The notes below the pieces were generated by a model, which was given only the letters and a program-made list of their open reading frames with translations, did no database searches and was not told where the DNA came from. A program made the translations under genes and the position numbers. DNA of 64,000 bases from Amphibalanus amphitrite. Lineage: Eukaryota; Arthropoda; Thecostraca; Balanomorpha; Balanidae. The stretch lies in assembly GCF_019059575.1 (NCBI RefSeq), contig NW_024881615.1, positions 248,001-312,000 on the forward strand, read 5' to 3'. This document shows positions 27,611-62,389 of the stretch, piece by piece. Position 1 is the stretch's first letter, and the number at the start of each line of letters is the position of its first letter.

Positions 27611-27612
27611 TA

Positions 27613-28561: not shown

Positions 28562-28563
28562 TA

Positions 28564-29714: not shown

Positions 29715-29729
29715 TCGCCTGTCCGATAG

Positions 29730-34757: not shown

Positions 34758-36011
34758 ATAAAGATAATGCTAATGGTAGTAGAGACTGTAGGATGAGTGG
34801 CGATATACTCATACCAATCTGAGTGCACATAATGATGCATCATTTTATTCACCCATGAGCCTCTTTAACCCGCGCCCGGGTGGGCCTTTCAGCCAACTTC
34901 GCCATAGTGATGGGAGGAGGGGTTCTGTATTTGTCCACGCCATATTATCTCGCAAAGGAAGAAAGATAGAAAGATGCGGAAAGGGCAGTAGGTAGCTCGC
35001 TATAAGAACTTTGAGAATCATCTAGACAATTTTTCAATCAGGTCATCGCTAAAGGTCACCGTTGATCACCAAAAGTTCATGAATTCTGGTTTTCGATTTT
35101 AACAACGTTCCACAAAGCAGCGCACACACAAGCAAATGAGGGGCCTTCTGCTCTTGAGCACTTATGTTGAGCCACGCAAGAAATAATTAAGCCAGTCATT
35201 AGCAGGTCACACTTGGTAGGCATTTCGACTGTTGCAGTCTTGCTGAGCTTCCATTCAGTTTTCTTGACGGCTCCAGCCTCCATCGTGTTTAATTGCAGTA
35301 GCAACTTACAACTTAACTTCGTCAATCTTTTTTACTTTAAATGTTGGCCATAAGTCGGGCTATGTCTGGTTGGTTCAGTTGGCAGATGAATTTCAGCGCA
35401 CACCAGAAGCCTTCCAGCAACAAGAACATAGGCCTGTGCCGGTAGACCTTGGGTAGACCTCTTCCAAACCGTTTCTTATGACATTTGTTAAGATTGCAAG
35501 TGTCTCTCAGTTTTTTCTTCTCTTGACTCTAGCCATTATGATAAAATTATCAGTGTCTGACTGCTCTAGCAGATAAACAGGATAAATTTAAAGAAAATGA
35601 AATAAAATGCTTTAATTACATAAATACCAAATATCTCAGATGACACTGCTTGAAATGCTTGCTGTAATAACATTAGTCAATTTTATCGCCTTGAAATGAT
35701 TCACTTATCACGTGCAATATGTGCTTGATATTTGTTTGCGCTCTTTATTGGTGACAAACTATCTTTTTTGGTTTAATATGCACAGGACTGTCAACACACC
35801 TTATGCAATTTGCAATGCGGCAACAATAAATGATGCCGAGGACCACCGAGGACTTTGTTTATTCCGTTACCATGGAGACGATTTCGTGAGGCTTGACTTC
35901 AAACCTTAAACGTTTAAAGAAATGTTTTGTAGTAAATGCAAGCGTTCTGATACACATTTAAAAATAAATTAACGTTAAATATTTAACAAACTTTTATTTC
36001 TACGTCCGTGC
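34758..36011. other. AT-rich intergenic DNA, nothing recognised
   Basis: Low-GC sequence with no gene and no clear element ends. Short frames such as 35077-35325 and 35712-35909 show no domain. Confidence 0.6.
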
Positions 36012-36015
36012 TTAA

Positions 36016-37683
36016 AGGGACCCTCCCACCTTCAAAAAAGTTTATGCATTGGCATGAAAGTGATGTCGCTCGGTTCAGAAAGAGCGAAAGCGAATATCTA
36101 CCAAATTTCACCGAAAAATATTCACCGGTTTTCAAGATATTAGACTTTTACTTTTGTTTACTTTTTTGGGATCTCCGCTGTTTCTAGCGACTTTATTTTA
36201 GAAGTGCGGCGTTTGCGGCAGATGTTGCGCGCAAATAGCATATACCACCTCGTGCTACAAAACGTTTTAGTCAAACATTTAAAAATTGTTAGATATTTGC
36301 GCTGACGTCACACATTCAGAGGGGTATTCCTCAGCATTAGCCCCTCTGAATCAAAATGCTGCAATTTTGAAATTCAATATTTCCGATTTAAGGCATTTCT
36401 CGATGTTGTGAGTGCTGAAACCGGTAATTGTGAGCCAGGGACCCCATTTTGGCTATCTCAACTCAAATCTAATGTTAACCCGCGCCCCGCTGGGGGGGGG
36501 GGCAGAATCTGCCCCCCCTCCCGTTTTTCGCCAATAACGTCTAAACGCGTTACGCCAGTGACGTCAAACTTTCAGTACCTTATCATACATCAATTTGACA
36601 CGTTCCCTGAAAATTTGAGCGAAATCCGTCGGAAATGTTTTGAGAAATTGACGTTTTAGTGACGTCATGTTCGCCATTTTCGCCTCAAAAACGGCAAAAT
36701 TTCAAACGCCGCTAACATCTTCATTATTAAAGGAATCAAGACGTAACAAAAAAGGTTATACGTGGTTCTACTTTGTCTATCAAATGGCTATCTCGTTTTT
36801 TTTGAAAATTTTGGATTTTGGCCAAAATTTTTCCAAAAAACTGACTTTTTTGGGAAAATATTTATAAAATCCAAAATTTTGAGTTTATCGAAAAAACCGG
36901 AATATATGTCAAAGAAGTGGTCTATGTGCACCTACCTACCAATTTTTAGAAGAATCGGTTCAAAAATGTGGGAGTTATTCAAAATTTTATGACGTCACGA
37001 CACACAAATTTTTTGAAAAATGATTTTTTTGGAAGTTCTAGACCTCGTACGGAAACAAAAATAGCACCATTCGATTTGCCGTGAAAAACTGCATCGGATA
37101 GACACCTTTTTAGGCCTGAACAACCAACTTCAAAATTTGACCTCACTTGACCTGACCTTGACCTGACCTCGACCTGAAATTCATCCAGAGGTGGTCCATA
37201 TCACTTATTGAGTGTGCCTATTGAATTCCATGAGTAAAATGACCCATAAAACATGTGTCGCACATGCCCTTTTCTATATTTTGTTTTTGGTGACCTGAGC
37301 TGACCTTACCTGACCTTGACCTTGACCTTTGAATGACATTGTGTGCAACGAATATTGTCTTGGTAGTCTAAGAACACGTTTTGGGCAATCAGTCTCAGTC
37401 CATTCTTCGGCAACTACGGTGCAAGGCCGATACTGTAGAAACTTGCATTTTGTACCCTTGACCTGACCTTGACCTGACCTCTGACCTACTTAAGCAAAAA
37501 AATTTGGGCTCTTAAGATCCGCCTTGTTGAGAGCTTTCGATTGCCGTTTTCCCCGTCTTTCTACGACCATCGGTTCGGAAGTTAGACAGGGGGGGCAGAA
37601 TCTGCCCCCCCCCCCCCCCCCCCCAGCAGGGCGCGTATGGCTGAATAGCCCAGCGGGGCGCGGGTTAAGGTGGGAGGGTCCCT
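36016..37683. mobile_element. TTAA-flanked MITE (piggyBac- or Kolobok-type), host of a nested element
   Basis: Inverted ends AGGGACCCTCCCACCTT lie at 36016-36032 and, reversed, at 37667-37683, with TTAA on both sides (36012-36015 and 37684-37687). A second TTAA element (36479-37664) has inserted just inside the right end. Without it this element is about 480 bp. There is no transposase frame. Confidence 0.85.
36479..37664. mobile_element. TTAA-flanked GC-hairpin element E1
   Basis: Begins CCCGCGCCCCGCTGGG and ends with the inverse CAGCGGGGCGCGGG, flanked by TTAA (36475-36478, 37665-37668). TTAA duplications with CCC ends fit piggyBac-type mobilisation. Just inside each end is a poly-G / GCAGAATCTGC / poly-C hairpin, then CGTTTTTCGCCAATAAC. 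The interior has long runs of TTGACCTGACC (AGGTCA half-sites) at about 37139-37176, 37292-37332 and 37457-37486. No long frame. Confidence 0.85.
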
Positions 37684-37687
37684 TTAA

Positions 37688-37858
37688 AGGTTAGGATTGC
37701 CCTTATCCTGCGCTGTCATTTCAGAAAACAATTTGCTTCTTTGGTCGACGAGGAACGCCGCAAAGACGCGAGTAGTTCGTCTATACTTATTATAGGTCAA
37801 TGGAATTTCCGGATGCAAAAGCATGCTATCGCATGCTTTTGATCCTCCAATTCTGGAT
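37688..37858. other. Short spacer with Helentron-type palindrome
   Basis: Positions 37781-37858 repeat motifs seen near 32030-32075 (the GCATGC-TATC-GCATGC palindrome and CCTCCAATTCTGGATAA). They also include the inverse of 32674-32696 (TATAATAAGTATAGAC). It is a fragment of the Helentron-like family. Confidence 0.6.
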
Positions 37859-38508
37859 AACGGAAATTTCTGAGTATGAGCGGCCGGCCGGCCGGCCGTG
37901 CGGACGCTTTTGCGAGGCTTATATCTCAGCAACCACTTGACCGATTTACATGCGGTAATTTTTGTAGGGTAGCTTCATTCCTTCTACCAAGTATTGGACT
38001 ATTCCCGATGCATGTGGGTGACCCCTTATGCACGTGCCACGTGCAAAACGAAGAGGTGTCAGTTTTGTAATTGTTGCAATATCTCGGTAACTACTTGGCC
38101 GATTGCGCTGAAAGTTGGTATGTAGGTAGGCACCCACTAGGCACTGCATATCCATGTGCCAGAGTTGGGGTGCTGCTGCACGTGCGCACGTGCAGGGGTC
38201 GTTTCCAGATCTCGAGAACGGCTGGACCGATGGCGCTCAAATTTGGTACACAGTTAGGGACCATGGTTAGTAGGGTGCCGTGTACAAGTCAGTTGGGACC
38301 CATTTTGCACGTGCGCACGTGCAGGGTGCCGCTCCCAGATCTCGAGAACGGCTGGGCCGATTGTGCTCAAATTTGGCACATCGCTAGAAACCGGTCAGTA
38401 GGGTGCCGTGCACAAGTCAGTTGGAGGTACCCCCTCGAAATTTCGCACGTGCAAGACTCACCCCCTCGCTCGCTCCGTTAGTCGCCCCAAAAGGCGCTAT
38501 ACTGGTGA
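37859..38508. repeat. Repeat module M, copy 1 (Helitron-like or satellite-bearing)
   Basis: Starts AACGGAAATTTCTGAGTATG and ends with the hairpin CGCCCCAAAAGGCG plus CTATACT. It contains at least three diverged units of the form ATCTC(A/G)G(C/T)AAC, TTG(A/G)CCGATT, and two full CACGTGCGCACGTG satellite units (palindromes at 38178 and 38307). A second copy lies at 53898-54564. A TCCGTTA near the 3' end is the inverse of the start. This recalls Helitron-type subterminal repeats, but the class is not certain. Confidence 0.75.
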
Positions 38509-38741
38509 GTAAGAAATGCAGCTTCAAAGGCGCATGTAGTACAAGGAACGCATACCTTGAAAACGCTCTTGGCGCCCTCACAGCCGAAGTATTCCGAATG
38601 ACGACTTGTAACAAACATGCGATAATTGTAGTCACTTAAGCTTCAGAGCATCACTGACAGGTGGCATCCATGTCTTACGGTTTTCGAAATATCTCGAATT
38701 TCGGCGTTGCCCCAACTCCGGCATTGCCCCAACTTCCCCTA

Positions 38742-41700
38742 TATATATATGTGCGGTGGTTTGATCCCTCCCGTATTACACAGCAACTGGCCAATTACAA
38801 GCGGTAACCCGTTCTCAAATTCTGCAGTACCTAATATCTATATCTTCTGGTGGTGGAGGTAATAAGGGGGATGAGAGGAGGCCAGAGGGCGTCGCTGACG
38901 GCCAGCCCCTCAGTAATCTGAGGAGTGCACCAGGGATGCGCACTCGTCCCCGTCTCGGTGTGCTCTGCTTCCGAAAGCGCTTTGATTTTTACAACGACAG
39001 TCCAGCGAGTGCTGAGCAGAGAGCGGCCAGGATGAAGGCTGGTCTGGGTTGCTAGCCGCCGCTTATCTCTGCGCAAAGCACGCGAACAAACGGTGCTGGG
39101 CCAAAGGTGAGGCAAAAAGCCAAGCTCAGAACTGGTTGGATGCACCACCTGCCCGTCAGAAAGCCTATCCAGCGGACGGCATTAGGTATGACGTTCCGTC
39201 AACTGGAGCCGACCTCTCTGCCACTCTCAGTCTCAATGTCTTAGACTAAATAGTAAATGCTCATTGCTCACCTTGCGTGACCCGAACTGGATTATTCCCC
39301 GGGACGTCCGCTTTGCGTGACGCATTAGTGTCTTTTAGGAGGGCTCGTCCGGTGGCGGGTCCGCGGCAGAGCGCCGTCGGCGGTAGTGAAAGGATGCGGC
39401 GGGCGGTAAAAAGGCCGGCAGACTGGTGACCGGACGGTGCCAGAGGCGGACCACATTCCCGACCTGTGTGTAATGACCCGGCCGGTCGACCCTCTGACCA
39501 TCGCCACTAACCCGCTGATCGCCGCTGGTCTACTGTCGCTGGTCCGTGAAGCCCGCCTGCCGGTCCCGTGACAATGCGCCCGTCACGGCGGGGCCCACCG
39601 AGGTCGTGGGTAGCCCGGCGCCGGATCGTTGTCGCCGACCCATGTCCAATCTCCATCAATTTGAGGCTAAACGATTTGTCATGGGAATTTTCTGGAGGAC
39701 TGGAGGTAGAAAACGACGCCGTGTGTCGGTCCCTAACTCACCGCTGATGACAATAGACCGTTTAGCGCGATATGTTTGGCAGATACCCGGGAGATTCGGA
39801 CGCTGTACCGTGTGTCCGATGTCCGATTCGCGGGTTTCTGCCAACTGTCGCGAGCGGGTGGCGACAGAGAAAGCCGAGACTCAGGCTGCATCCAGCTGTG
39901 CTCTGCGCGCCGTCACCGGACCCGCAACTGTTCCGGTCCAGTTGAGCGACTTGAAACAATGACAGGCTGTCCTGTCTGTGGCGTCACCGGGACGGGTGAA
40001 ACTAACAGATCGCAGTGGCGAGAGGACGGCGATCCGGAGAGGGACGCTTCTCTGGTGTGCGGGCCTCCAATGCGCTGATATTTAGATAGTGTCTGAAAGG
40101 CTGCCATTTCGGTTTATTAAAAAATCTGGGGAATATGTACGTTTTTATGGATTTAGCTGCTTCAGTATGGAGTTCACTGAGATTTGAACGGATGCAATTA
40201 AGAAAGTTCACGCATGGATACCATTATTTAACTTCCTTTATTTATAGCGCCAACTTTCATTGCCATTGTTCACTTCCTCTTGGGAAATACCAATTTATCT
40301 GTTTGTTGCATGCTAGTGTTGGATATATCCCATTGTAGAAGCTGTGCTCAGGGTCGTACCATATCACGAAACCACAGGGTCACATGGCTGCTATTATCAG
40401 TCTGCACAGCAAATCAGCACGCCTCGGTCGGCGACATTCAAGAGGGTCACGCCGTTTTCATGACCGGCGGGCTCGCAGCTGTTTTCCTTCGGCCGTCGGT
40501 CCGTTTTTGTTCACTGTCGTTTCTGTGACCTCTGAGGGCAGCCGTGCCATGTGCATTGTGCAACCAATCTAGGGGGAACGGTCCGCTCAGCAGCGAGCGG
40601 AGCAGTATGCCCACATATCCAACGAAAAGCGTTTGTCTGTTTCAAACAGCCTTCGGTTATAACGGAGCCGTGGCAGTCTCGCCCGCTCACGGACTCCCGT
40701 GTTCTGCAGCGGCGGGGCCGCACAGTTCCAGCACTGCGCCTTCCACACCGCGCCGACGCGATGTGACGTATACGGTGAACAAACGAGATAATCACTTCCG
40801 GGGAGGGTCGGTCAACTGCGCCATTCGGGATTGCATTGCCGGAGGAGCCGTTTAGTGCCAGTTGTTTCGGCCTGTGATAAATGACGACATAAATTGTTGT
40901 GTCGGAAGCGAATCTGTAGCTGGACTGTTGGACCTTTCACCTTCGTTTGGTTCGAGTGATAAATGATACTCAAGCTAAGTTTAGTTGCCCTGTAAATAAT
41001 TGCTGCAAGCGTCAACTAACAACTCCCATGAATTACCTACAATACCTACATGTTGTGCATTTCATATCTATTCTCGCTCGCTAAAAGCAAACTGCTATAT
41101 GAATCATGCATGCATGTCCCAATACAATACCGGACAAACTAACAGCTCACCAGACAGCGCTGCCGACTGTATGCCAGGTAGTTAGTTTCCATTCAGCTCA
41201 CACTGTGAGTGACATTTGTGACAGTCACTTATTTAGGAACAGTAACAGTGCGACTTATTTCAGCATTCATCACAAGTGTCGCGGTAATTTGCCAGCAACA
41301 TTCTGCTGTTCCTGAGATGACTAGCGGTCTAGCTCCGGTTCCCACCACAAACCATGCCCGAAAATAGGCTGCCAATCTACTTGCGATATGGTCCCTGAAC
41401 AACGACTGCTTACAGGCAGCTATAATGCAAGGCCACTGGCGCCAATCGCCCGGCGTTTGTGCATGTCACCTAATGATAGGGCCGCCGCCCGCGGGCGCGG
41501 CCGGAGACTGACGGGCGGGAGGGACAGTGGGACTCTGAGCCCCCGGAGGCGACTGACGGTGGGGATAGGAGCCCTTGGAGGGACCAAGTGGCGGTGGAAC
41601 TCGCGCTCCCTTGGAACAGACTGGCGGAGGGACCATGGGACCTTTAGGTCGACTGGAGATGGGACCTGGCCCTTTGAGCCGACTGTCGTATATTCGATCA

Positions 41701-42440
41701 CACTATTCGGCCCACCCATGCTTGTCGGAATCATTTGAGGTCACAGCTTGCATGCCATTTCCCATGACCAGAAGCCATAATACGTGTCACAGCGACTATA
41801 ACCCGATCGTCAACGTCTAACTCACACAGTGCAAGTGTCCGCTCAGCGATCGGAGTCTCGCCTAGTTATGCCTCTATTATTCGATACTTTTTACAGTGAT
41901 CTTTATTTTTGAGCGATGCACTGGCGAGGGATACAAAATACCACATACCTACCTCAGCTGGGTGACTGTCGGGCTGCTTATTTGATCTTTTGAAGATAAC
42001 TGAGCAAAGCCAGCCTAGAAATGCTTGGCTGCGATGATATTGAGCTTATGCCTCATAGATAACTTTGTTCACACCCGCGTGCCTCGGATTTGGCCGCGTC
42101 ATGCTTACTACTTGAGTGTTTGCAGGTTCCTTGCAACGGTGTGAAAATGACTGACGTAACTGGCGATGTGGTTAGGCAACAGATAAACAATTTTATCTGA
42201 CACTCATCGGCAAAACAGCGACTAGCAAAGAGATAATACCTACAGTTTTGAGTCGTGCACCACCCATTGTTTGCCGTCGTACAACGCGCGCGGGACACCG
42301 AATACGTCTCAACTGAGGGCCGTTACGTCAGTTTCACGCCGGATACCGTTAGGTGGGTGGCCGCCGGGTCAATTTTCCGCTTCGTCTGTCTCCTCTACTG
42401 ATGTGACCATGGCCAATGGCCATGCCATCTTTTTTATCTA
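38742..42440. other. Intergenic DNA, no gene recognised
   Basis: Frames such as 39546-39962 and 41388-41738 have no recognisable domain and look accidental. A GGGACC(T/A)-rich stretch lies at about 41570-41675. No transposon ends were recognised. It may include the unrecognised left end of the PIF/Harbinger element. Confidence 0.55.
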
Positions 42441-42497
42441 AGTCTGTGTCAGTGTTGATATATAACTACATTCTTTCTAGATTCGACTGATCACGTA

Positions 42498-43332
42498 TCA
42501 GGTCTGCGTATCTGCGCCTGGTGGGAGACGGCCACGGCGTCTCGTGTGCGTGTGCTGCGCCATTCACCACGTGACGGATGCGCTAATACACCGCTGCCCA
42601 GGGGCCATCACCTGGCCGAGCGACCCGGCGGCTCTCGGACGCCTCAAGGAGGACTTTCGACAGGTCGCCGGACTGCCTGACATGAGGTGCTTCGACGGCA
42701 CCCATATACGCCTCACCGACCCCAGAGAGCAGCGGGAGGCGTATATTAATAGCTTCCCGTCCCTGAATGTGATGGCCGTCGCCGCACCCGACCGCTCAAT
42801 CGTTGCATTGAGCGTACATTGTGGCGGTCGGGTGCACGACGCTCGAGTACTGGCTGCATCGAGGCTGCCCGAGTATTTTCGCAATGGGAATCCCGTACTG
42901 GGCGGCATAATGCTGGGTGGCAGTGGCTATGGCCTGTCACCCTGGCTCATGACGCCCATTGCGGACTCTACCACCGCCGAGGAGCGCGCTTATAACACCG
43001 CTCATGCGCGCACTCGTGTGGTGGTGGAGAACGCTTTCGGTGTGTTGAAAATGCGGTTCGGTGCGCTCGAGTTCGGACTGCGCCTGAAAAGTGTGGCCCA
43101 CTGCGTGGCGGTTATCCACACGTGCTTTATCCTACACAATATGTGTATCAAGGTCGGTGACTTTGGTGAATGGCTCGGAGCACTGAGGCAAGATGACGGA
43201 GTGGTGCAGGAGCCAGCTGACGGGGCGGCAGAGCTGCAGACGTGGGGAGGGAGGAGCAGACAAGCTTGGTTGCGTACTGTGGGACACTGGGGATACGTAT
43301 TCAGCTTCTTTCATTCACGTGATGACCCATGA
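42498..43332 (+). pseudogene. PIF/Harbinger transposase (HARBI1-like DDE nuclease), inactivated
   Basis: The main frame (42544-43332) has the DDE nuclease layout: CFDGTHIRL (first Asp, codon 42694-42696), HCGGRVHDARVLAAS, MLGGSGYGLSPWLMTPI, VVENAFGVLKMRFGALE (Glu) and FILHNMCI. The second Asp, normally in GDSGY, is Gly here (GGC, 42919-42921). Immediately upstream, a family-like segment (YLRLVGDGHGVS, up to 42544) is in a different frame from AIHHVTDALIHR, so a frameshift lies near 42545-42560. The N-terminal region normally found before that is not visible. It converges on the accessory gene at 43551-46991. Confidence 0.88.
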
Positions 43333-43429
43333 CGTACGTATAACATATTTTATTGCCTAGTACTGTCAAATCGATCTAAGTAAGTTAATTTATTCCTAAA
43401 AAAAAAATGAGCCGGAGTCGCCACCATCT

Positions 43430-43550
43430 TTGACAGCTCCGGCTCCGCCTCCGTCTACAGGCTGTATTGTTTCACGGCTCCGGCTCCGGGCAAAATGTGC
43501 CGGCTCCGGCGGCTCCGGCTCCAGCTCCGGCTGCGGCTCCGCACCCCTGC
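43430..43550. repeat. GGCTCC(G) tandem repeat
   Basis: Imperfect GGCTCCGGCTCC(A/G) hexamer units between the two convergent Harbinger genes. Frames through it give Ala/Gly/Ser low-complexity peptides and are not treated as genes. Confidence 0.85.
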
Positions 43551-44083
43551 TCATAGCACATAAGCCAGGGTTGCTCTGGGAGTTCCTTCCTGCAGCATGT
43601 CCTCCAGGATCTGTAAGCTGAGGTAGGTGCGGAGCAGCGTGACCTCCTCCGGCGTCCGTCTGAAGAGCGGCGTTGAGCGTATGAGCTGAAGGCGAGCTTC
43701 AATCTCATCGCGGTTTCTCTCCGATGCCTGGGCCGCACCAGTCGAGAGGGCCGCGTCAGCTGACGAGGCCTCGCCGGTCGAGAGAGCCGTGGCGCTCCCC
43801 TGGGACGGACCAGCCGAAGGGACCGTTGCGTTTGACGGGCCTGCGCTGGTCGAGGGGACCGTGCTGGTTAACGGGGCCGCATTGGTCGCCGGAGCCTGGG
43901 CGAGCGGCGTGCCCAGCCCTATCACCCGGACGTCTTCAGCAGTGAAGTAGATACTGGGCGCTGGTGACGTTTCTACCGCGGTTGTTAGTGCGGTTTCTGG
44001 GACGGCTTCTTGCTGATTCGTCGTCAGCTGGCCCCAGGTAATCCCGCCAGGAACTTCAAACGACGTCAGGTAGTTGTCTCTGC
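43551..44083 (-). CDS. Accessory gene exon 3 (low-complexity middle and C-terminal helix)
   Basis: Preceded by a pyrimidine-rich tract and CCGGCAG. The split Gly codon continues into GRDNYLTSFEVPGGITWGQL. Repeated STGEA/STGAAQ- and PSAGPS-like segments follow, then ERNRDEIEARLQLIRSTPLF and a C-terminal helix. The stop is at 43551-43553. Confidence 0.72.
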
Positions 44084-46991
44084 CTGCCGGAGTGAAAACA
44101 ACGGGAATGGGATGTAAGAGACAGTGGATCTCTCATCTCGGCGCCCTTTCGTCTCACCGTTACGATGTTTATCTCTTGCTGGTCTGAGAAGGGGTGCCAT
44201 CCCACAGTTTTTTTTTTTTTTTTTTTTTGTCGCGATAGCTCCTAACACAGGAGAAAAAGAGCTGAGGCCAGTTTTACCAACAGAAAAATGGCCGCTTGCC
44301 GGACTTTTTTTTGCCTAAAGACTGCTTCACATATACGGAGTGTAAACGCCATGGGCACGTAAGCGGATAGGGCTTTACCGACATACGGAGCGTAAAAGGT
44401 TAAGCCCTATCCGCTTACGTGCCCATCGCGTTTACACTCCGCATATGTGAAGCGGTCTTTACGCAAAAATTCCGGCAGGCGGCTATTTTTCAGTTGGTAA
44501 AACTGGCCTTTGAACTCGGACATGTCTGATCTTTTGTTTAAGCCCAAAACCCGATATTCTAAAAATAATTTATCTACCCAATCAGTTTATTTTATTACAG
44601 TTTAATGAATTGTTCTTATGCCTGATAAAGAACACACAGCATTTTTGCAACAATAATTTTGAAATATTTTGTGATAGGAAGGACGACATTCCATCTTTGG
44701 TAGAGGCTGAATAGTTATATAGTGTTTTTCGCGGAAGCTTATTATACGCGTGCACCAATGCTTGCATAAGGAAAATTATTTCGGAGCGAAAAATGGAATA
44801 TCTTTGTCTATGGTGATTGTAAACAGTAAAAGCCCCTGTTTTGCACTATAGTCCCAGCTCAGGTTACAAAACTGTTCTTTCATCTGCTCATAATCCCGTG
44901 GTAAAAATGGAATATTTTCTTTAAAATCGGGAACCACTCGATGCGTCTTGCAACGGCGCGCACGCTCGTTTTTCCCGCAGCACTACCTTAACCCGCGCCG
45001 GGCCGGGGGGGGGGGGTGTTTAAACACCCCCCCCCCCTGCGGTTTTTCGCAGTTTTTGGCACACCTGTTCGTGCATCTTTTCCGCACATGTTGTGAAAAT
45101 TTCAGACCCAGGTCGCCTTAGGTCAGGTCACCAGGTCACTCCAAGTGACCTCACCTCAGAAAGAATAAGAATGCTCGTCATAGCTACACTGCTTGATCGA
45201 TTGCCTTGAAACTTTCAGCGATTGATTAGAGCAACAATATCTATAAAATGTGTATCTCGGAATTTCGATATCGGTGACCTAAGGTCAGGTCAATTTTGCG
45301 GCCTCTCCATTATAAGTCAATGGGAGAAAATTGAAAAGCGTCTGTTTTGCACGAACGCTATTCTAGACACTCTCAAACATCGAGATATAGGTAAGATTGA
45401 CACACTGAACCGGAAAATGGCAACTGTGACCCCTCCTTATGTCCCCGAGGTCATCTCAGGTCACGAACAGAATCTAACAGTTTTTCGCTAATAACTTCTG
45501 ATAGAGAGGTGCTAGGGCGCTGAAAACGCCTTAGATGTGTTCGGCTCGACGTTGCGGATCGACTGCTATGCAACATGACCTTTTCCGGTCAGGTCATGAC
45601 CTTGACCTGAGGTTAAATTTTCAAATTGACCTTTCAAGGTCAAATTATAGTTTATTCGACGCGTCTTGACGAGAGGAACACGATGCTGGCAAAAGTTATG
45701 TCATGGCTCTTTTGAGTCAAAAGATATTGCCGAAAAAAACGCTTTTCGTAAAAACGGCTATTTTTGGAGTTTTTGCCCTCTGCAGAGGCTAAACCGTTGA
45801 CCGGAGGTCAAATCTGAGAACATTATCCAGAAAGGTCTGTAAAAGGGCTATCGAATGCGTTTTTCCGCGGCGCTTTAGCTCTATCGGTTCCCGAGATAGC
45901 CGTTGGCAGTTTCAAAAATGTTGAAATAGTCAACAGTTTACCTTTGGTGACCTCTGGTGACCTGACCTTTGACCTGACCAAAAAATGACCGAAGTGTTTT
46001 CGTCCTTATTTTGGACGTTCTTTCGATTGCCGCTTACCGCGTGTCGCTACGTGGCCCAGGAGCCGAGTTAGAAGGGGGGTGTTCAAACACCCCCCCCCCC
46101 CGGCCCGGCGCGGAATCTCAGAGCACCGGCCCGGCGCGGGCTAATTAAGTAGGGGATAAACGGCGAGGGACTGGGATGGTGCCCTCCCCCTGCCTCCGCA
46201 TCCCCCTTTGGACGGGACGTATGTAAAAACCAATAGGTCTGGCGAGGGATAGGTATCATATCTTCGTATTTTTCAAAGGTCCGGAATGCTGGAGCTCCGA
46301 TTAGTCATGGATGTGCTGTTTTTCATGTTCCTAGCTCATGTGCATGATATACCACTCTCCCCACCCTCACTCCCAACGACAATGCATTAAGATACCGTTA
46401 CATCTGAGAAGGGGTGCCATCCCAATTCCCAACACTACTACCGTTACATCTGAAGGCTGAAAGTAACATACCCAAGCAATCCATGACGGTGTCGTCGAGC
46501 TCGGTCCAGACCACTGCACCTGGACCCGACTGGTTCTTCTGCTGGAATTTTTCTGCAGCAGAGGTAAGTGTACGGCGTGAATATTTGCTCTTTGGGGGAT
46601 ATCGACCAATTTCTTACGAACTAACGCCTTAGAAAATTGAAGTCTGCATATAAGGTGCGTTATTTGGTTAAATTCTATTGTGCTAGCCACTGCAGTGTGC
46701 TGAATTGCTGTGAAGTGGTGGTATTAATGGTTACTCACTTTTTGTCCGGTCTTGGGTGTTTTTTATGACACCCTGCAACATGCTTCGCGTCGATGTTGCG
46801 TCATTTATCAGGCCAAGTTGAATGGCCCGCTCGCGTATGCGACCCCATTCTTGAAGCCTACGCGAGCGGGCGTTGGGGCCCTTAAACTCTCCATAAAGCG
46901 TCTGGAAAACGAGAACGTTGACACGCTTTATTTCCATATCTATTGGGTAGGTGATCAGGCAAAATTCACCAGCAGATAAAGCCGGCATCAT
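43551..46991 (-). CDS. PIF/Harbinger accessory protein with Myb/SANT-like domain (3 exons)
   Basis: The three exons (46991-46739, 46552-46472, 44083-43551) join in phase (1 and 1) into a 288-residue open frame. Exon 1 (about residues 1-84) fits a Myb/SANT-like DNA-binding domain: LSAGEFCLIT, TLYGEFKGPN, RLQEWGRIRERAI, VIKNTQDRTK. Exon 2 encodes KKFQQKNQSGPGAVVWTELD and DTVMDCLG, the linker typical of these proteins. Exon 3 begins RDNYLTSFEVPGGITWGQL, continues with a Ser/Thr/Ala/Pro-rich middle and ends in a charged helix (EEVTLLRTYLSLQILEDMLQ). In PIF/Harbinger elements such a protein partners the transposase in DNA binding and nuclear import. No RNA evidence is available, and the start Met is the first in frame. 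Confidence 0.75.
44205..44229. repeat. Poly-T tract after a duplicated 22-mer
   Basis: A 21-nt T run follows the 22-bp block CTGAGAAGGGGTGCCATCCC (with T before and A after) at 44183-44204. The same 22-mer recurs exactly at 46403-46424. Together these look like a target duplication and poly(A) tail of a - strand retroposed insertion spanning 44205-46402, but a plain duplication is also possible. Confidence 0.6.
44266..44508. mobile_element. Fold-back MITE (hairpin of ~110-bp arms)
   Basis: GGCCAGTTTTACCAAC begins the left arm and its inverse ends the right arm. Arms pair almost throughout (GTGTAAACGC, GGGCACGTAAGCGGATAGGG) around a short loop near 44375-44400. No clear target duplication. 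It lies in the second intron of the accessory gene. Confidence 0.88.
44509..44987. other. AT-rich intron sequence, nothing recognised
   Basis: Lies between the fold-back MITE and the TTAA element E2 inside the accessory-gene intron. No coding potential seen. Confidence 0.6.
44992..46140. mobile_element. TTAA-flanked GC-hairpin element E2
   Basis: Starts CCCGCGCCGGGCCGG after TTAA (44988-44991) and ends with the inverse CCGGCCCGGCGCGGG before CTAA (46141-46144), a one-base change from TTAA. Subterminal hairpins are poly-G / TGTTTAAACA / poly-C at the left and TGTTCAAACA at the right. The left hairpin is followed by CGGTTTTTCGCAG. The interior carries AGGTCA half-sites, for example 45103-45147, 45580-45645 and 45955-45985. 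Confidence 0.85.
46141..46402. other. Remaining intron sequence next to the duplicated 22-mer
   Basis: Non-coding. It lies between element E2 and the second copy of the 22-mer at 46403-46424. Nothing else recognised. Confidence 0.5.
46472..46552 (-). CDS. Accessory gene exon 2 (linker)
   Basis: An 81-nt exon between acceptor CTGCAG and donor GTATGT, both phase 1. It encodes KFQQKNQSGPGAVVWTELDD and TVMDCLG. The GP-rich piece followed by an acidic helix and LG resembles the segment after the Myb domain in related proteins. Confidence 0.75.
46739..46991 (-). CDS. Accessory gene exon 1 (Myb/SANT-like domain)
   Basis: Starts at an ATG-ATG pair and ends AAAA|GTGAGT in phase 1. The Trp in LQEWGRI and the conserved NTQDRTK segment fit Myb/SANT-like domains of Harbinger accessory proteins. 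A 13-bp inverted repeat (GCCCGCTCGCGTA at 46825-46837, inverse at 46859-46871) lies within the coding sequence. Confidence 0.75.
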
Positions 46992-47069
46992 AAGTACTCG
47001 GCCTCCCGAGATTCACCATTGCAAATGATTTGTTTAGTTTGTAGAAAAACAAACAAATTATAATACATA

Positions 47070-48050
47070 GGGTAAGGTGCCTAATTAGCGACCCTTTCCG
47101 ATTTGCGACCTACCTCCCTACAGAAAAACTGGCGGGAGAAAACGGGGCAAAAACAGCGTCAAAAGGTCAGCCATACTTTGGTTATCAAAGTACATTATTT
47201 TACGGTTGTCGATGTTTCTGGTGGGACGTTTCAGGTGAGTTTAAATAAAAATGACGAGTTTATTATCCAAAACGTGTGTGTTTGGGCCCTCTCTGATGAA
47301 AAGCGATGCACATTAGGATGATGCACCTTTTTTATTCTGAATCGACATTCCTTTTTCAATTGATTGCCGTTTTCCCATAGTAAATCGCTTAACTGTGCAC
47401 AGCATGGCGGTTAAAAATGTGTCGTAACTCATATTTCCTATTTGCGCCTGACATGGTCGCAAATAGCTCAAGAAGGGAAAGAAAGGGGAAAAGAGAGAAA
47501 CTAAAATGAGGTGTTGCTGAAGCTTGGAATGTGTGGCAGGGGATGTCAAATGTCGTCACCGACTGCAGGGGTGCCGAATTCAGCGCGGACCTCGAATATC
47601 ATACGAGATAGCCCGCAAAATTTGGGTTTCCGCCTTCTTTTCGCCTTCGGTGCATCACGTGACCAGTTTTTACTTACGTAAATGTGTTGGATAAACGTTC
47701 CTGTTCGAGTGATTGAGTGCTTTGCGTATAGGTTACCTTTTTTTTTAGATCATATTTCAGCTTTTCAGGCGTCGCATTTTTTTGCAACTTTTAATATGGG
47801 GAAACCCATAGACTTATTAGCGACCCTCCCCGGTCGCTAATCGGGAAGAGTTCCCTATTAGCGTTTTTTGCAGTGGTTTGCCAAAATGCTCACTACAAAT
47901 AAGTTAGTGAACATTGGGACAGAAAATGACTATATTTTAATAGAAAAATGAACGACCTCTCCGAAAATCAAGCCAGTAATAGAGTGGCACCCACAGAGCG
48001 TGAGCAATGACGGTTCAAATTAAGGGGGTCGCTAATTAGGCACCTTACCC
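47070..48050. mobile_element. TA-flanked MITE with GGGTAAGGTGCCTAATTAGC ends
   Basis: Inverted ends of 24 bp (GGGTAAGGTGCCTAATTAGC...) match perfectly apart from their extreme interior. TA flanks both sides (47068-47069, 48051-48052). GTCGCTAAT and TTAGCGACC words recur inside. There is no transposase. A TA duplication fits Tc1/mariner-type mobilisation. Confidence 0.88.
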
Positions 48051-48052
48051 TA

Positions 48053-49636
48053 CCGTAAAGTGGGGCTATTTGAAACGGATTTTACCGTTTTTGGCCTCTC
48101 CCTTTAAGACGGTTCATATTTCTTATAGCATGTAAATTGCAAAAATGTAGTTCTTTGTGAGCTCTTTCATATAGGTGTATTTTGGTTCAGCTAGTAATAA
48201 TGATTAAGGTTATTTTTTATGTTAAAGCCTGTCTCAAATAGCCCCATAGGGTGGGGCTATTTGAGACAGTTTTAGTTGCAAAGAAATTAAAGAAAATCGG
48301 TCACGCTAGAGATAATTTTTTAAACGCCATGCATTTGGAAATTGAGTTTTGTTCATTTTGGCAAAAATTGTTTTCTTCAAAGACTGTTATATGACCTTTA
48401 TATTCAATCTTTTCCTTTTTCGTAGGACACTTCAATTCGGTAGGGTATAAAATTGCATCATTATATGCTAAGGCTATCATAATATGATGCGACCCATAGC
48501 TTTCAAACTGACAGGATGATCATCAAGGACTATTTCAAAGTCATCGACAGTAAAATTTTGAAAGTAAGTTTATGTATATAGCCCCGGTGACGTGAAAACA
48601 GATATACCGAAAGTCGGTGGGGCTATTTGAGACAGTCTCGCTACCTTATGAAACACACTGTAATGAATCAAACAAGGCAAAAGGTTTCCCAAAACATTTG
48701 AGTGAATGGTCTGCATGATTGTTTGTTCCTTTGTGCATCTCCATGCGAAGAAATAACAGAAAAATGTTAAACTGTTTTGATTTTATGCCGATTTTCCTCG
48801 ATCGCTGCATGCTGTATCAATTGGCCTGTTACCCTACCACATCAAGTACTTGGATAGGCTCACCTAACAATACGTTCATGTGTTAAGTAACACTCAATGG
48901 TGTTTTTTGGTCAACCAAGGTAGACATATGTTGATTGTCGGATAAGTCAGTGACTGATGAAGCACATTTTAAGCACATATTCATCAGAATAACTAGTTTG
49001 GTCACCAGCTAAAGGGTTATTATGTTACACTACGAACATGTAAATATTGCTTGCTGCTAAAAGTACCTACCATGAACCCACTGCACGTTTATGACCACGA
49101 CCGATTCACCGGTGTTGCTTATGTCGAACGTTCGATGCACTTCAGGTAGATGGCGGTAAGTCTTCTCGGGTGCATCGCTAAACCGCTATCATCAGCTATT
49201 TGGCATATCCGTTGAGGTTTGACCAGGTGGGCATCATCGGGATTCTGAGACAATGGGTTACGCAATCGGCGGTACCGTTAACAATATATAATATTTTCAT
49301 GAAAAATGTGCTTAGCCTATAAGCAAAAAGGTAGTAACGATAGATACAGTGGCGAGCTCTGTTAAAACTTCAACTTTTTTAAGCTGCAGGTAGGGGTCCT
49401 TTTCGAGCAACTTAAATTGTGCGTTTTTCTGTATTTCGTATTTTATTGCAAATTTCTTTCAGAACTTTTCAAAATTTTCAAAAAGGTTATTCAGAGCATT
49501 CACTGTTCAATTCCACATTAGCCTAAGCAAAAATGACGAAAAAACATCAAACGGTTTTCATTTTACAGCGATTTTACTATACCATTACCTTACTGTCTCA
49601 AATAGCCCCACTGTCTCAAATAGCCCCACTTTACGG
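48053..49636. mobile_element. MITE with CCGTAAAGTGGGGCTATTTG ends
   Basis: Inverted ends CCGTAAAGTGGGGCTATTTGA at 48053 and at 49636 (inverse). GTGGGGCTATTTGAGACAG recurs inside at 48250 and 48618, and the inverse form is doubled at the right end (about 49590 and 49606). It starts immediately after the TA of the previous MITE. The exact target duplication is unclear (TA at left, CA at right). No transposase. Confidence 0.82.
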
Positions 49637-49655
49637 CACTAAAAGTTTGCCTTAA

Positions 49656-50562
49656 CTCTCGCCCGTATAGCGGGGGGGGGGGGGAGTTGAACGGACCTCC
49701 CCTCGGTTTTTCGCAAATAACTCGCGTAAAAAGCGGCCGATCGCGACGATAGTTTCAGTACCCTCGAGTTGATCACTTTTACACCTATCCTGAAAATTTC
49801 ATGACCCTGACCCAAATGACCTTTGATCTGTGACCTATACTTTTCGAGACCATGTTAGGCCGGAATCGCGATTCGGCGTACGTCGGCCCGCATTAGCCGC
49901 GCGTTTGCAGTCTTTTTGTGGCTTCAAGCGTTCAAACATGTGATATGATGCTGCCCAATGCGGTAGGATGGGTGTCAAGGTCACCTGAAGGTCAGGTCAC
50001 GTCATTGACCTTTGGTGACCTCGGGTGACCTCGGTTCACTTTTTCGAGATTTACATGTTTCTAGGCTAGTTTTTGGAGCTGAATTCGAATTTAGCAACCA
50101 TTTGAACATTTACGAAGTAGTTTTGGTGCCTTCGTAACATGTTACGAAGCTGTCAGAGGCGGTTGACACGTATTACGAATACCCGTCACAACCCCTACTG
50201 GTTGACCTGACCTGACCTGACCCGACCTGGCCTAAATGCATGCATACATCATCTGCGATCAAAACTATCATGATATTCGTGATCAGCACCCGAAAAATCT
50301 CTTAGCAGCCACACTTTACGACGTTCTAACAGGTCCCGATTTTCCCGACCTTTGGGTCATTGACCTGACCTGGAAGGTCAGCCAATGACCTAGGACCTTA
50401 GAATTTGGTATCATTGGCTTCCTCTCGTCACGGGCAACACGCTCGTTTTTTTCGCGAAGCTCTAGCTCGATCAAGGCCATCAGGGGCGAAACGGCAAGGG
50501 ATGACCTCCCCCCCCCCCTTATACGTTCACGGCTGGAAAAACACCAATACGGGCGAAAAACT
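49656..50562. mobile_element. GC-hairpin element E3 (diverged TTAA family)
   Basis: Left end CTCTCGCCCGTATAGCGGGG follows TTAA (49652-49655). The right end is less clear (a C-tract at about 50508-50518, then ATACGGGCGA near 50550). Past the left hairpin is CGGTTTTTCGCAAATAACTC. The interior holds dense TGACC(T/C) half-sites at about 49805-49835, 49978-50032, 50204-50232 and 50340-50398. It is homologous in inverse orientation to E4. Confidence 0.7.
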
Positions 50563-51048
50563 GCACAACTGGTTAAACTGCACAACGTGGTCGATGAGTT
50601 TGTAATTCAAGAATCTATTGGCATCGGAATAACTTTTCCTCCAATGTCTCCTCCAATGACAACGCAATGTTGTCGCTCCCTCGGCCTAGAGAAGTTTAAA
50701 AATGGCAAACTATAGGTAATGGTAGCATTTATCATAATAAAAATGTTACGGGCGCAGAAGCATGCGAAGAAGTGATATTCGAGGACTCTTTGAAAATGAC
50801 GAACATTTTTTTGGGGGGAATGCCTCCGAAGGTTCTGATTCCGTCTCTGATCCGCCCGCGTCCATCTCTATTCTCTGACCCCCTTCCCCCCCATCCTGCG
50901 TCTTTCAGGGTTGTCCTATATGAATTCCCGTGTGTGCTACAACGTAACTGGACTCGTGATGACGATAATCTTCTGGCTCTATATTTTGCTTCCAGGCTAC
51001 AATTTACGTATCGATGTGGGAAAATCAGCTGGCCTCAAAAGCTGTATT
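50563..51048. other. Spacer between two inverted GC-hairpin elements
   Basis: No gene or element recognised. It would be the loop if E3 and E4 paired. Confidence 0.55.
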
Positions 51049-51052
51049 TTAA

Positions 51053-51960
51053 CCCTCGCCGGCACAGGCCATTTTGAGTCCTTCGACGGCACAAGGGGAG
51101 GGGGGGGGGGGGGTGGTACGACCCCCCTCGCGTTTGGCCCCTGGTGGAGCTAGAGCTTCGTGGAAAAAAAAACGAGCGTGCTGCCCGTCACGAGAGGAAG
51201 CCAATGGTACCCAATTTTAAGGTCCTAGGTAATCGGTTGACCTTCCAGGTCAGGTCAATGACCCAAAAATCGGGAATATCGGGACCTGTTAGAAAGTCTT
51301 GAAGTGTGGCTGTTATGTGGTTTTCCGGGGTGCTGATCACGAATATCGTGTTAGTTTTGATCAGAGATGATGTCTTTAAGCATTTAGACCAGGTCGGGTC
51401 AGGTCAGGTCAGGTCAACCGGTAGGGGTTGTGACGTGTATTCGTAATACGTGTCAACCGCCTCTGACAGCTTCGTAACATATTACGAAGGCACCAAAACT
51501 ACTTCGTAAATGTTCAAATGGTTGCTAAATTCGAATTCAGCTCCAAAAACTAGCATAGAAACATGTAAAACTCGAAAAAGTAAACCGAGGTCACACGAGG
51601 TCACCAAAGGTCAATGACCTGACCTGACCTTCGGGTGACCTTGACACCCACCCTAATGTATGGAAGCAACATCAAATCACATGTTTGAACGTTTGAAACC
51701 ACGAAAAGCTTGCAAACGCGGGGCTAATGCGAGCCGACATACGCCGAATCGCGAATCCGGGCAAACATGGTCCCGGAAAAGAGGTCACAGGTCAAAGGTC
51801 ATTTGGGTCAGGGTCATGAAATTTTTAGGGTAGGTGTAACATTGATCAATGCGAGGGTACTGAAAGTTTCGTCGCGATCCGCCGCTTTTACGCGAGTTAT
51901 TAGCGAAAAACCTTAGGGGGGGGGTTGCATCAACCCCCCCCCCCCTTGTGCCGGCGAGGG
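51053..51960. mobile_element. TTAA-flanked GC-hairpin element E4
   Basis: Ends CCCTCGCCGGCACAGG and CTTGTGCCGGCGAGGG, flanked by TTAA (51049-51052) and TCAA (51961-51964, one change). The right hairpin is GGGGTTGCATCAACCCC, preceded on the + strand by GCGAAAAACC. AGGTCA half-sites cluster at about 51234-51262, 51389-51418, 51588-51645 and 51782-51818. The element is the inverted relative of E3. Confidence 0.83.
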
Positions 51961-51964
51961 TCAA

Positions 51965-53002
51965 ATGTTCAGATGGGCGCTAAATTCAAAATCAGCTCCA
52001 AAAACTATCCTATACCTAAATTAAAAGCATGTTATAAAAAAGTGAACCAAGGTCATCTTTATTTGAATCAGGGATATCGATTTATTTTTAAATAGGTGAT
52101 TAACTCGAGCGCACCGGAAGTTTCGTTGCAATCGGCTCCTTTTTGCGCGACTTCTTTGCGAAAGCCCGAGACGGTCTCATCTGACTCCCTTTCCCCCTAC
52201 ATGTGCACTGTACAGCTATGACGGTAGCCATGAGGCTGAGGCTAGTTTGTAGTTTTGTAGTTAGGTACTGATCCGACGAATCGACTGCGACCATTTTTTT
52301 AACGATCAGACGAACGCTCGGGGCAGTTTTGGCGCGTCCAATCCTTTGAGGGGTAAAAAGGTACTAGAATGGTGGCTACTTAAGAATATTGTTGTGCTGG
52401 TGTTCCCCGCCCACAGCTAATTGAACTTTAGGTAATTGGCTCATTGGCTTTAGGGAGCTCTTGAAGCGATTCTGAATGTGATGTATTTGTTGGTGTTGCT
52501 GACGCCTGCTTCACTGACATAAAAGCTAAAAAAGCATACTCAGCATCGCAAAAAGTGGGGGGGGGGGGTCGACACCCCCAGTTTTCAAGAGTGGGGGGGG
52601 GGGGTCACGACCCCCCGACCCCCCGTCGGCGACGCCCCTGGGCGAGTATGTACCTATAAATATGTCTAAGTGCATGTTCGCTCTTTTTTTAATAAAATGC
52701 CTCCCCGGAAAAATATAAGAATTGTATCATTGTCTCTGAGCTAAGAGCTTGAATACCTAGGTACACATCAATCATCACATTATTATCAAGCACGTTTAGG
52801 TCCTACATAGGGATTGTTGCAAGCTTATAGCTCCAACCGTGATGTTGCAAAGGATGCAAGTGGTGCATTATAATTTATAAAATGATGCCTACTCTCTAAA
52901 TATGCGAAGATCACTCATGCATCGAAATTATCGCAATATAAATGAGCTAGAAAGAGCCTCGTCAAAAAACCCTAGCTCCTAGCTTGGATAGCATGCACTT
53001 AC
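51965..53002. other. Intergenic DNA with one MITE-like end
   Basis: A pair of poly-G/poly-C hairpins followed by GGCGACGCCCCTGGGCG at about 52555-52645 looks like one end of another G/C-tract MITE. Its partner end was not found. Otherwise nothing recognised. Confidence 0.5.
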
Positions 53003-53897: not shown

Positions 53898-54564
53898 TAA
53901 CGGAAATTTCTGAGTATGAGCGGCCGGCCGGCTGGCCGTGGTCACGATTCTACGACGCTTATATCTCAGCAACCACTTGACCGATTTACATGCGGTAATT
54001 TTTGTAGGGTAGCTTCATTTCTTCTACCAAGTATTGGACTATTCCCGATGCATATGTTTTAGGGCCTTGGATGCATGTGGGTGACCCCTTATGCACGTGC
54101 CACGTGCAAAACGAAGAGGTGTCACTTTTGTAATAGTTGCAATATATCGGTAACTACTGGGCCGATTGCGTTGAAAGTTGGCATGTAGGTAGGCACCCAC
54201 TAGGCAATGCATATCCATGTGCCAGAGTTGGGTGCTGCTGCACGTGCGCACGTGCAGGGGTCGATTCCAGATCTCGAGAACGGCTCGGCCGATTGCGCTC
54301 AAATTTGGTACACGGTTACGGAGCAGTTAGTAGGGTGCCGTGCACAAGTCAGTTGGGGCCCATTTTGCACGTGCGCACGTGCAGGGTGCCGCTTCCAGAT
54401 CTCGAGAACGGCTGAGCCGATTGTGCTCAAATTTGGCACATCGCTAGAGACCGGTTAGTAGGGTGCCGTGCACAAGTCAGCTGGAGGTACCCCTCGCAAT
54501 TTCGCACGTGCAAGGCCCACCCTCTCGCTTGCTCCGTTATTCGCCCCAAAAGGCGTTATACTCA
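53898..54564. repeat. Repeat module M, copy 2
   Basis: Closely matches 37859-38508 from AACGGAAATTTCTGAGTATG to the hairpin CGCCCCAAAAGGCG. It includes the two satellite units with palindromes at 54240 and 54367 and a partial third near 54504. It directly abuts the Helentron-like 5' end at 53896. Confidence 0.8.
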
Positions 54565-61130: not shown

Positions 61131-62389
61131 TGGCAGAAGCTGATTTCACTTTGTCTTCTCATGCTGTCGAATGCTTTTCCTTGGTCGATAATAGATTTAG
61201 GATGGATTTGCCTCACGGACGGTTAATCAAACAAGTAACGGACGAAGCTTGCGATGTTTCTAGCAGGCATTATCTTACCGAGATCGCAGGATTATTTTTG
61301 TACCATTACTTGTTATAGGTATAGTAGCAGCTTTCAGTCGCTGTTCGCAAATGGCGCTCATTTGTTTAATTTCCAACTACTGATCAACGGGGATGGGTGG
61401 TTTAGCGGCATGATGTTGGGTGGCTATGAAAAGCTTTTACACACATTATGCCTAAAAAATATTTCAGAAAGCGGCTCCCGCACAAAGCGTTTCATTTTAC
61501 GGTTTTGCTCTATGGAGGCTTATCCGTTGACCGCGATCCAAAATAAGGGCAATTTGTCTTTGACCTCGGAAAAGTGTCTGGTCACCTGACCTCTGGGCTC
61601 TGCTGGACCAAAAATAATCAAAGCGTAACCTTGCGACCTTCACAACATTGCTGACGTCTTGTAACTATATAGTCCAGGGGACGAGTTACGTCCTCGTTTA
61701 GACCCCCTCGCCATCGTCGGCTTGAAAATTCATGGGCCCCAGCGGGCACTGGCTTATGCGCAGATTCACAGCATAGGCTTTTCGATTTCGGGATTCACAT
61801 AAGCTTTTAAGAGCTTGTTTTGGAGCCCATATTTCAAAACTCAGTGGTGGAAAACACTTAAAATCAGCCTGACCTCACCTAACCCTAGCTTCTCCAAATG
61901 TGTCAAGATAAAAATTTCGAAATAAATCCAAAATGCCACAGACTTCGTTTCCAAGAAGTTCTAACAGATTCGGACTTTGTGTTTTGGGTCCTTGACCCAC
62001 CATTGACGGTCGACGAATGACCTGACTATAATATCAGATACCACCGGCTTCATGTTGTCTAGGCCAGTATCTTCATTTTTCGTGAATCTCTTATACTCGG
62101 TCAGGAACCGATCAGCTGTAGGAGTCCGATCGACCCTCTCCCCCTCCCCTCCCCCCGGCCGCTAGGTACAGGTCTCGCGAGATTAAGCGGTAGGTTTCGC
62201 CATGGGCGTAACCACCGCGCTGGAACGCTGGAAATTCCAGCCCATTTTTGGGATGCTGAAATGCCGCCCCCGGTAGAGGAAAACTGCAATTGCGGGACTC
62301 GCTTACTTCAAAACCAAGAAAAAAGAAACGGCACTGCTCGGTCCACTATACGCCTGACCTCAACGTGCCGCTCCTCACTAAAATAACTA
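61131..62389. other. Intergenic DNA, possibly a decayed GC-hairpin element
   Basis: Scattered TGACC(T/C) words at about 61558-61640 and 61868-62030 resemble the interior of elements E1-E4, but no TTAA ends were found. No gene recognised. Confidence 0.45.

Follow-up and report, generated by a model that had tools for sequence, protein, structure and literature searches.

CCC-type tips are a feature of the piggyBac element of Trichoplusia ni (T. ni) itself. The two ends of that element are built differently—the left end holds a palindrome at bp 17-33, and the right end a 17-bp insertion together with a duplicated segment. A palindromic internal repeat lies in both ends, where it is bound by a dimer of cysteine-rich domains, and the cryo-electron microscopy (cryo-EM) paper that reports this arrangement describes it as puzzling (PMC7351741). 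The palindrome of piggyBat has another sequence than that of piggyBac and an A/T-rich centre (PMC11707139). More generally, CTAA and TCAA-like departures from TTAA are also listed for piggyBac elements, as are four 5' motifs that include CCCTC and from which CCCGC is absent (PMC10813416). Here, we describe a group of TTAA-flanked elements from the barnacle Amphibalanus amphitrite (GCF_019059575.1), four of which (E1-E4) lie, together with the remnants E5, E6, E7, E9, and E10, in a stretch of 64,000 nt that we analysed as a whole (C118:248001-312000; hereafter, the window). What is new in these elements is that a short word directly after the tip (hereafter, w) is matched between the two ends, that the palindromes farther in covary, and that these ends differ on interiors that are 85-95% identical. 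Among the results listed in a search of the open-licence literature, none pointed to palindromes that are variable, matched, and enclosed by G and C runs.

The left end of E1-E4 reads, from the tip inward, CCC(G/T)CGCC, w, a G run, a palindrome (the word between the G run and the C run), a C run, and the block GTTTTTCGC, which stands 3' of the left hairpin in all four elements; only the left tip of E3 deviates (CTCTCGCC, reading CTC). The right end consists of a CCC tip, w, a spacer, w again, and then G run, palindrome, and C run. This second copy of w is confined to the right end, 26-27 bp after the first in 11 of 14 right ends (E1-E4, E7, and, from other contigs described below, F1, F2, F3a, F3b, F6, and F7); the distance is 28 in F8, E9 shows a weak repeat at 26 bp (4/7 letters), and E6 is a misfit with a best shift of 34. 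Measured from the left tip, the palindrome centre is at 29 bp in E1, 30.5 bp in E2, and 32 bp in E4; measured from the right tip, it is at about 65, 56, and 65 bp, respectively.

E1 (36479..37664, plus strand) is complete, with TTAA at 36475-36478 and 37665-37668, w = CCGCTG, and the palindrome CAGAATCTG at both ends, as G11-CAGAATCTG-C7 in the left hairpin (36492..36518; predicted DNA fold -18.8 kcal/mol, z -3.3) and G7-CAGAATCTG-C20 in the right (37589..37624; predicted fold z -2.4). Likewise complete, E2 (44992..46140, plus strand) lies between TTAA (44988-44991) and CTAA (46141-46144), with w = GGGCCG and the palindromes TGTTTAAACA / TGTTCAAACA; its left and right hairpins, at 45005..45037 and 46074..46101, have predicted folds of z -3.8 and -1.3. 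E3 (49656..~50555, plus strand) is an older copy with TTAA on the left, an eroded right tip, and w = CGTATA, of which F6 on contig C191 is a better-kept relative, with the palindrome GTCGAACGGAC. E4 (51053..51960, minus strand) is oriented oppositely and shows the same layout after reversal; it is complete between TTAA (51049-51052) and TCAA (51961-51964), has w = GGCACA, and carries TTGATGCAA on the left and an unlike word on the right. Its left end recurs at C1:448907, among the genome left-end matches listed. Single-strand folds are predicted at z -2.4 for the left end of E4 and, poorly, at -1.0 for that of E3. A first-pass annotation of this DNA had proposed CCC-starting inverted ends with TTAA or one-base variants and a diverged E3, subterminal poly-G/word/poly-C hairpins with GTTTTTCGC following, and AGGTCA-rich interiors. 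All of these were confirmed, AGGTCA or TGACCT occurring 67 times in the 4,143 bp of E1-E4 and 60 times in the other 59,857 bp of the window. Missed at that stage were the matching of w between ends, its second copy in the right end, and the degraded copies E5, E6, E7, E9, and E10.

Of 36 possible pairs, the eight hairpin words of E1-E4 form 28; shuffling gives 10.6 on average and in none of 20,000 trials did as well, in a test where the two E1 words are not independent. The left-end words alone form 15 pairs against 6.1 when shuffled (2 of 20,000 as good). When left and right words are paired across the four elements, their own pairing ranks first of 24, a result carried by E1 and E2. The 5'-CCC...GGG-3' tips, the CTC of the left end of E3 excepted, are those of the piggyBac superfamily, and asymmetric ends with palindromic internal repeats are shared with T. 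ni piggyBac (PMC7351741), if not necessarily with the whole superfamily. No stop-to-stop frame of 120 amino acids (aa) lies inside E1-E4, which makes them non-autonomous at most. Judged from their sequence, with TTAA duplication and CCC...GGG tips, we classify E1-E4 as non-autonomous piggyBac-type elements. An Rfam scan of the window gave no matches at gathering scores.

We searched the host assembly (807.55 Mb, 2,644 contigs) for further copies, finding at least 40 full-length matches to E1 (one of them E1, the remaining 39 at 97-98%) and at least 40 near-full-length matches to E2 (E2 itself included, 95-100%); these counts are lower bounds, with 40 candidates scored out of 3,388 first-look candidates for E1 and out of 6,452 for E2. 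One stretch (G000:C604:1924-2924) is 100% identical to 1,001 bp of E2, the other matches being at 95-96%, and may reflect either duplication in the assembly or a very recent E2 copy. From the 39 other E1 copies, we then retrieved the 20 with the highest scores, which are 97.9-98.4% identical to E1 in the stretch compared. Identical 4-mers flank 18 of the 20—TTAA in 15, TTAT in two, and CTAG in one—and differ in L026 and L028, so the TTAA-type family with piggyBac-type ends proposed at first pass is upheld by its tips, its asymmetric layout, and these flanks, and a lack of TTAA duplications was not seen. CAGAATCTG stands at both ends in all 20 copies, with G and C runs of varying length. One copy (L041) is inserted at a TTAA within the palindrome of an E2-type element, and another (L032) adjoins a second E1 right end over a single TTAA.

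For the tip class CCCTCGCC, a left-end pattern of the form TTAACCCTCGCC-w-G6-word-C6 and its right-end counterpart gave 5,597 and 5,571 forward-strand matches in the genome, respectively, compared with 0 for reversed control patterns; the reverse-strand counts (16,732 left and 16,507 right) are inflated because one tip matches with several C-run ends. Along contig C1, the matches listed include 47 distinct left ends, of which 30 have a right end facing them at no more than 3.5 kb. The spans of 27 of these 30 pairs fall at 885-1038 bp, in two length classes, and the three longer spans are expected if other elements are nested inside. These elements are a very numerous piggyBac-type group, 0.9-1.2 kb in length, with thousands of copies.

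To compare subfamilies, we added to E1-E4 a sample of 200 kb from contigs C40 and C191, which holds seven further complete elements (F1, F2, F3a, and F3b in C40; F6, F7, and F8 in C191, F8 being nested inside F7) and brings the complete elements to 11; the left ends F4 and F5, which lack a partner, were excluded. Compared with lenient gap costs, the interiors fall into four groups: A, with E1 and F7 (0.949 identity); B, with E2, F3a, and F3b (0.85-0.86); C, with E3, F6, and E4 (0.91-0.92; E3/E4 0.908); and D, with F1, F2, and F8 (0.88-0.94; F1/F2 0.939, with the same palindrome and different w). Identity outside these groups is 0.76-0.83. At least two different w occur within every interior group, and at least two palindromes within each of A, C, and D. 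Taking one element per subfamily for nine subfamilies (E3 and F3b excluded), the left w agrees with the w of its own right tip at 76 of 81 letters, compared with 49.5 under random pairing, and with its own right subterminal copy at 75 of 81, compared with 53.0; in neither case were any of 20,000 random pairings as good. Within interior groups, a pair of w from the same element agrees at 8.4 of 9 letters (n = 9) and a cross pair at 6.1 of 9 (n = 12).

Palindromes, scored by eye, are alike at both ends in eight of the 11 complete elements: E1, E2 (one difference, 9/10), F1, F2, F3a, F3b, and F7 match, and F6 matches with a reversed centre and one difference. The hairpin words thus differ between subfamilies while being shared within these eight elements, as the first-pass annotation had noted within E1 and E2. 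Sets of w and palindrome recur among the left ends listed, such as CTGGCA with GGTCGATGCGACC, GGCACA with GGTTGATGCAACC, and CGCACAT with GGTGGTTGCCACC. Seven 13-mers form 34 of 35 stem pairs, compared with 26.6 when the 3' letters are redealt (4 of 20,000 as good), and twelve subfamily words form 38 of 48 pairs, compared with a shuffled mean of 14.6 and a maximum of 29 in 20,000; both figures overstate independence, because the words are few, hand-picked from the listed ends, and related by descent.

The change from shared interior to differing end can be followed along individual pairs. In 40-bp windows, E3 and E4 are only 0.72-0.80 identical in the left end and 0.55-0.65 in the right one. 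F7 and E1 diverge sharply in the outer ~110-160 bp: they agree at 0.90-0.99 over positions 110-1010 and at 0.67-0.69 over 7-110; on the right, identity is 0.57-0.67 over 1010-1093, 0.80 over 1093-1157, 0.67 in the right w, and 1.0 in both tips. The left subterminal region of F7 contains a 27-base stretch common to F1 and F2. Given that F7 is a mosaic relative to E1 and has this F1/F2-like stretch, end modules and interiors have probably been recombined.

The genome has 116 piggyBac-domain matches, many of them in open frames of about 570-680 aa, and we examined ten representatives for ends like those of E1-E4. A tip is visible in seven (in three of them at both ends), and all are CCCATTA-like or CCCAGATCTGCCCA, compared with the types CCCTCGCC, CCCGCGC, and CCCGGCACC that we name for ends of the family. 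The sole G-run/word/C-run block in these ten stretches is part of a neighbouring element rather than of the transposase element's own ends. The search proposed at first pass for a piggyBac or Kolobok transposase with the same ends has thus covered ten of the 116 piggyBac-domain matches, and none of the seven with a visible tip is of this type. Nine of the transposase matches have equal scores and 604-aa frames (for example, on C103, C188, C913, and C1226), with two more within 0.5 bits; this set is perhaps a young family. Its fetched member from C103 (L064) has CCCATTAGTGCCCA tips at both ends. Beyond the right tip of L064 lies a further right end, whose tip is of a different kind (CCCGGCACCGCCTGGG) and whose palindrome is TCGGATCCGA, indicating that the group extends beyond the two tip classes for which we searched. 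A loose left-end pattern matched viral contigs at 14 loci, none of which belong to the family on inspection of the matched stretches, and other patterns gave 0 matches in viral contigs and 0 in prokaryotic genome contigs.

How might such ends be used? We consider it probable that a trans-acting piggyBac-family transposase moves these elements and that w and the palindrome are recognition modules that need to be alike at both ends. The transposase would excise the elements at TTAA by the hairpin pathway, w would correspond to the short segment of which piggyBac has a second copy in its right end, and the block of G run, palindrome, and C run to the internal repeat to which the cysteine-rich domains of piggyBac bind as a dimer. 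The unit of recognition would then be the end module (w plus palindrome) and, as both ends must be alike, it would turn over as a unit—namely, whenever an element recombines with a different transposase lineage or goes over to one, with the AGGTCA-rich interior carried along. Several observations weigh against this interpretation. Among the ten transposase representatives examined out of 116 matches, seven of them with a visible tip, there was no autonomous element with matching ends. Some cross pairs of w reach 8/9 (E1 with F1 and with F3a, F1 with F8), the right part of F8 has no G/C block, and on C1 three neighbouring end pairs are wrongly directed relative to each other, besides one left-left and two right-right pairs that face each other. 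Left and right palindromes are unlike in E4 and F8, and those of E3 are eroded; sharing of the hairpin word within an element, noted at first pass in E1 and E2, is borne out there and in all 20 genome copies of E1, but only partly in E3 and not in E4 or F8. From this mismatch it follows that a matching palindrome is not strictly required, or that these copies have been altered since. Furthermore, variation on near-identical interiors is unexpected for a fixed palindrome read by one transposase, and the window has a further element with G-run/palindrome/C-run blocks (21269-22231, with a copy at 33801-34759), which suggests that the block is perhaps partly a habit of this genome.

Other explanations share some of this evidence. 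Ordinary history of miniature inverted-repeat transposable elements (MITEs), with each subfamily derived from its own autonomous piggyBac lineage, interiors shared by occasional recombination, and words that are mechanistically unlinked, is possible, if doubtful; it agrees with the many piggyBac lineages implied by 116 domain matches, with the mosaic outer parts of F7, and with the coral CMITE families, whose terminal repeats differ around one conserved interior (PMC2872659). On the other hand, none of the seven transposase representatives with visible tips has such ends, and by itself this history leaves the covariation of the palindromes unexplained. Somewhat less likely, in our estimation, is that the ends are copied from each other, the inverted G-run/C-run blocks and palindromes promoting template switching or gene conversion between ends and within palindromes. 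The words would then undergo a neutral concerted drift, with mutation rather than a binding protein maintaining their palindromic form. Covarying stems, run lengths that vary between copies, and G-run palindromes in the unrelated-looking element at 21269-22231 all agree with this, as does the centre of the E1 palindrome, a single base that is reversed between the ends in all 20 copies (and likewise in the one copy of F6), as would follow from copying of a hairpin in one sense or the other. Yet the hairpin words are unchanged in 20/20 E1 copies, so that turnover is not visible copy by copy, and it is the non-palindromic w that matches best, the third copy inside the right end included. In 12 of the 14 right ends, moreover, the two copies of w keep a distance of 26-28 bp, which points to selection.

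We regard as unlikely, to a greater degree than end copying, an address code in which the likeness of the two ends is itself recognised, by the ends or by a bridging dimer, whatever the letters; subfamilies would in that case arise by simultaneous code change at both ends, with the interior kept. The reversed palindrome centres of E1 and F6 and the covariation of the palindromes are compatible with such recognition of likeness, as with copying between ends. Putative DNA pairing, in which extruded left and right hairpins recognise each other and the palindrome is a self-recognition code uniting the ends of one element, draws on words that are alike in eight of 11 complete elements, subfamily-specific, and covarying, and on single strands that are predicted to fold, most strongly at the left ends of E1 and E2 and poorly in E3. 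E4 and F8 manage without matching palindromes, however, and we know of no precedent for hairpin synapsis in a cut-and-paste transposon, although no search aimed at one was made; such pairing seems improbable. Lastly, that the mover is Kolobok or another TTAA superfamily rather than piggyBac seems very improbable: TTAA alone is not decisive, Kolobok sharing this target duplication, and a Kolobok-like element surrounds E1, but Kolobok termini are 5'-RR...YY-3' (PMC9587614), whereas those of our elements are 5'-CC...GG-3', and we rejected this assignment.

Some further regularities of the elements were noted or tried. The left ends of F1, F2, and F8 (L043-L062) have, directly inward of the left hairpin, a second palindrome that varies in sequence, reading GGCGGCGC-GCA-GCGCCGCC in F1/F2 and CGATATCTCC...GGAGATATCG in F8. 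Palindromes alternating with AGGTCA clusters in the interiors numbered 3-5, compared with null means of 0.9-1.5 (maxima 2-4), but their phase was inconstant and the idea was dropped. Global inverted symmetry of E2 was likewise rejected, as its self-reverse-complement profile match (E 1.3e-14) includes the terminal repeats; without the ends, the symmetry has a z of only 1.8, or 2.9 with GGTCA masked. Finally, AGGTCA clusters in E1, E2, and E3 are separated by gaps of 148-208 bp, near a nucleosome repeat, and in a post hoc test this regularity was attained by 1 of 20,000 random placements at linkage 35, 0 at 50, and 54 at 20. Regular spacing fails with the fourth interior group (F1; 4,305 of 20,000, with a 534-bp gap), and we do not claim it.

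The remnants in the window belong to several types. E5 (51963..52198, minus strand) adjoins E4 and is of E3/E4 type (nhmmer E 2e-14 and 2.3e-11), whereas E6 (34869..35104, minus strand) is a right-end remnant with TTAA and then the tip CCCGCGCC (nhmmer E 6.6e-7 with the E1 model and 6.6e-5 with the E2 model). The right half of an E1-type element is preserved in E7 (20615..21036, plus strand; nhmmer E 3.7e-20), and the interior and right part of an E3/E4-type element in E10 (61781..62154, plus strand; nhmmer E 2.2e-18). E9 is in two pieces on the plus strand, an older E3/E4-type right end at 44920..44987 (nhmmer E 8.5e-8, match 44920-45038) and, on the far side of E2, a stretch at 46147..46247 with the terminal tip GGCGAGGG (nhmmer E 0.0092). 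Joined, these flanks score 87, compared with 59 and 42 alone and a maximum of 36 in 200 shuffles of the right flank; from this comparison, we read E2 as inserted into the older right end E9.

The window also contains other repeats and coding remains. E1 is nested in another TTAA element (36012-37687) with the ends 5'-AGGGACCCTCCCACC...GGTGGGAGGGTCCCT-3' (RR...YY, Kolobok-like). The stretches at 21269-22231 and 33801-34759 are inverted copies, 99.4% identical over 964 bp, and their word is only partly palindromic. Tandem arrays with a period of 127-130 lie at 33067-33503, 38177-38453, and 54239-54484 and share ATCTCGAGAACGGCTGG-CCGAT-G-GCTCAAATTTGG adjoining the palindromic CACGTGCGCACGTG; a motif common to the elements and these ~128-bp arrays was considered and rejected, the sole element match being weak (E 0.061), and a search of plasmids with a neighbouring array gave no matches. 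A reading frame at 42481-43332 encodes a DDE_Tnp_4 transposase (Pfam E 5.9e-28), which we take to be Harbinger-like. Frames resembling those of a retrotransposon without long terminal repeats (non-LTR) occupy 25985-29734 on the minus strand (reverse transcriptase E 6.9e-25, zf-RVT E 6.1e-9). A long hairpin at 44308-44469 has 72-nt arms that are 93% complementary and 18 nt apart, and an ADAR-like exon, judged by eye, lies near 6090-6340, as fits an animal host.

These elements bear on two open questions, namely the reason for the asymmetry of piggyBac ends and how end recognition evolves without loss of mobility. Thousands of copies with about a dozen palindrome sets so far, several of them on near-identical interiors, amount to a natural experiment in which subfamily-specific ends change together on a constant middle, offering a route to study the co-evolution of ends and enzyme. 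This experiment separates tip, word, spacer, palindrome, and interior, and might show whether it is the sequence or the symmetry of the palindrome that is recognised.

Among described systems, that one interior can have several ends is a known principle from the CMITEs of the coral Acropora, reported in 2010, which are likewise non-autonomous, with TTAA, piggyBac-type tips, and an interior more conserved between families than the terminal repeats; they are about 100 bp long, and the parts of that report consulted describe no G/C-run palindromes, right-end word duplication, or covariation (PMC2872659). The resemblance to piggyBat of Myotis lucifugus lies in a short motif close to the tip and, after it, an imperfect palindrome to which cysteine-rich domains bind as a dimer, although piggyBat has motif and palindrome three times in its left end and, as described there, no corresponding palindrome in its right end (PMC11707139). 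Closest are the ends of T. ni piggyBac (LE35, RE63), which share TTAA, asymmetry, a palindrome in both ends, and an insertion plus duplication on the right (PMC7351741); the first-pass remark, which knew of no family described with such a layout, is not upheld. The T. ni element, as this account presents it, has one fixed palindrome, whereas the barnacle elements encode no protein, place their palindromes between G and C runs, and have many matched sets of tip, w, and palindrome.

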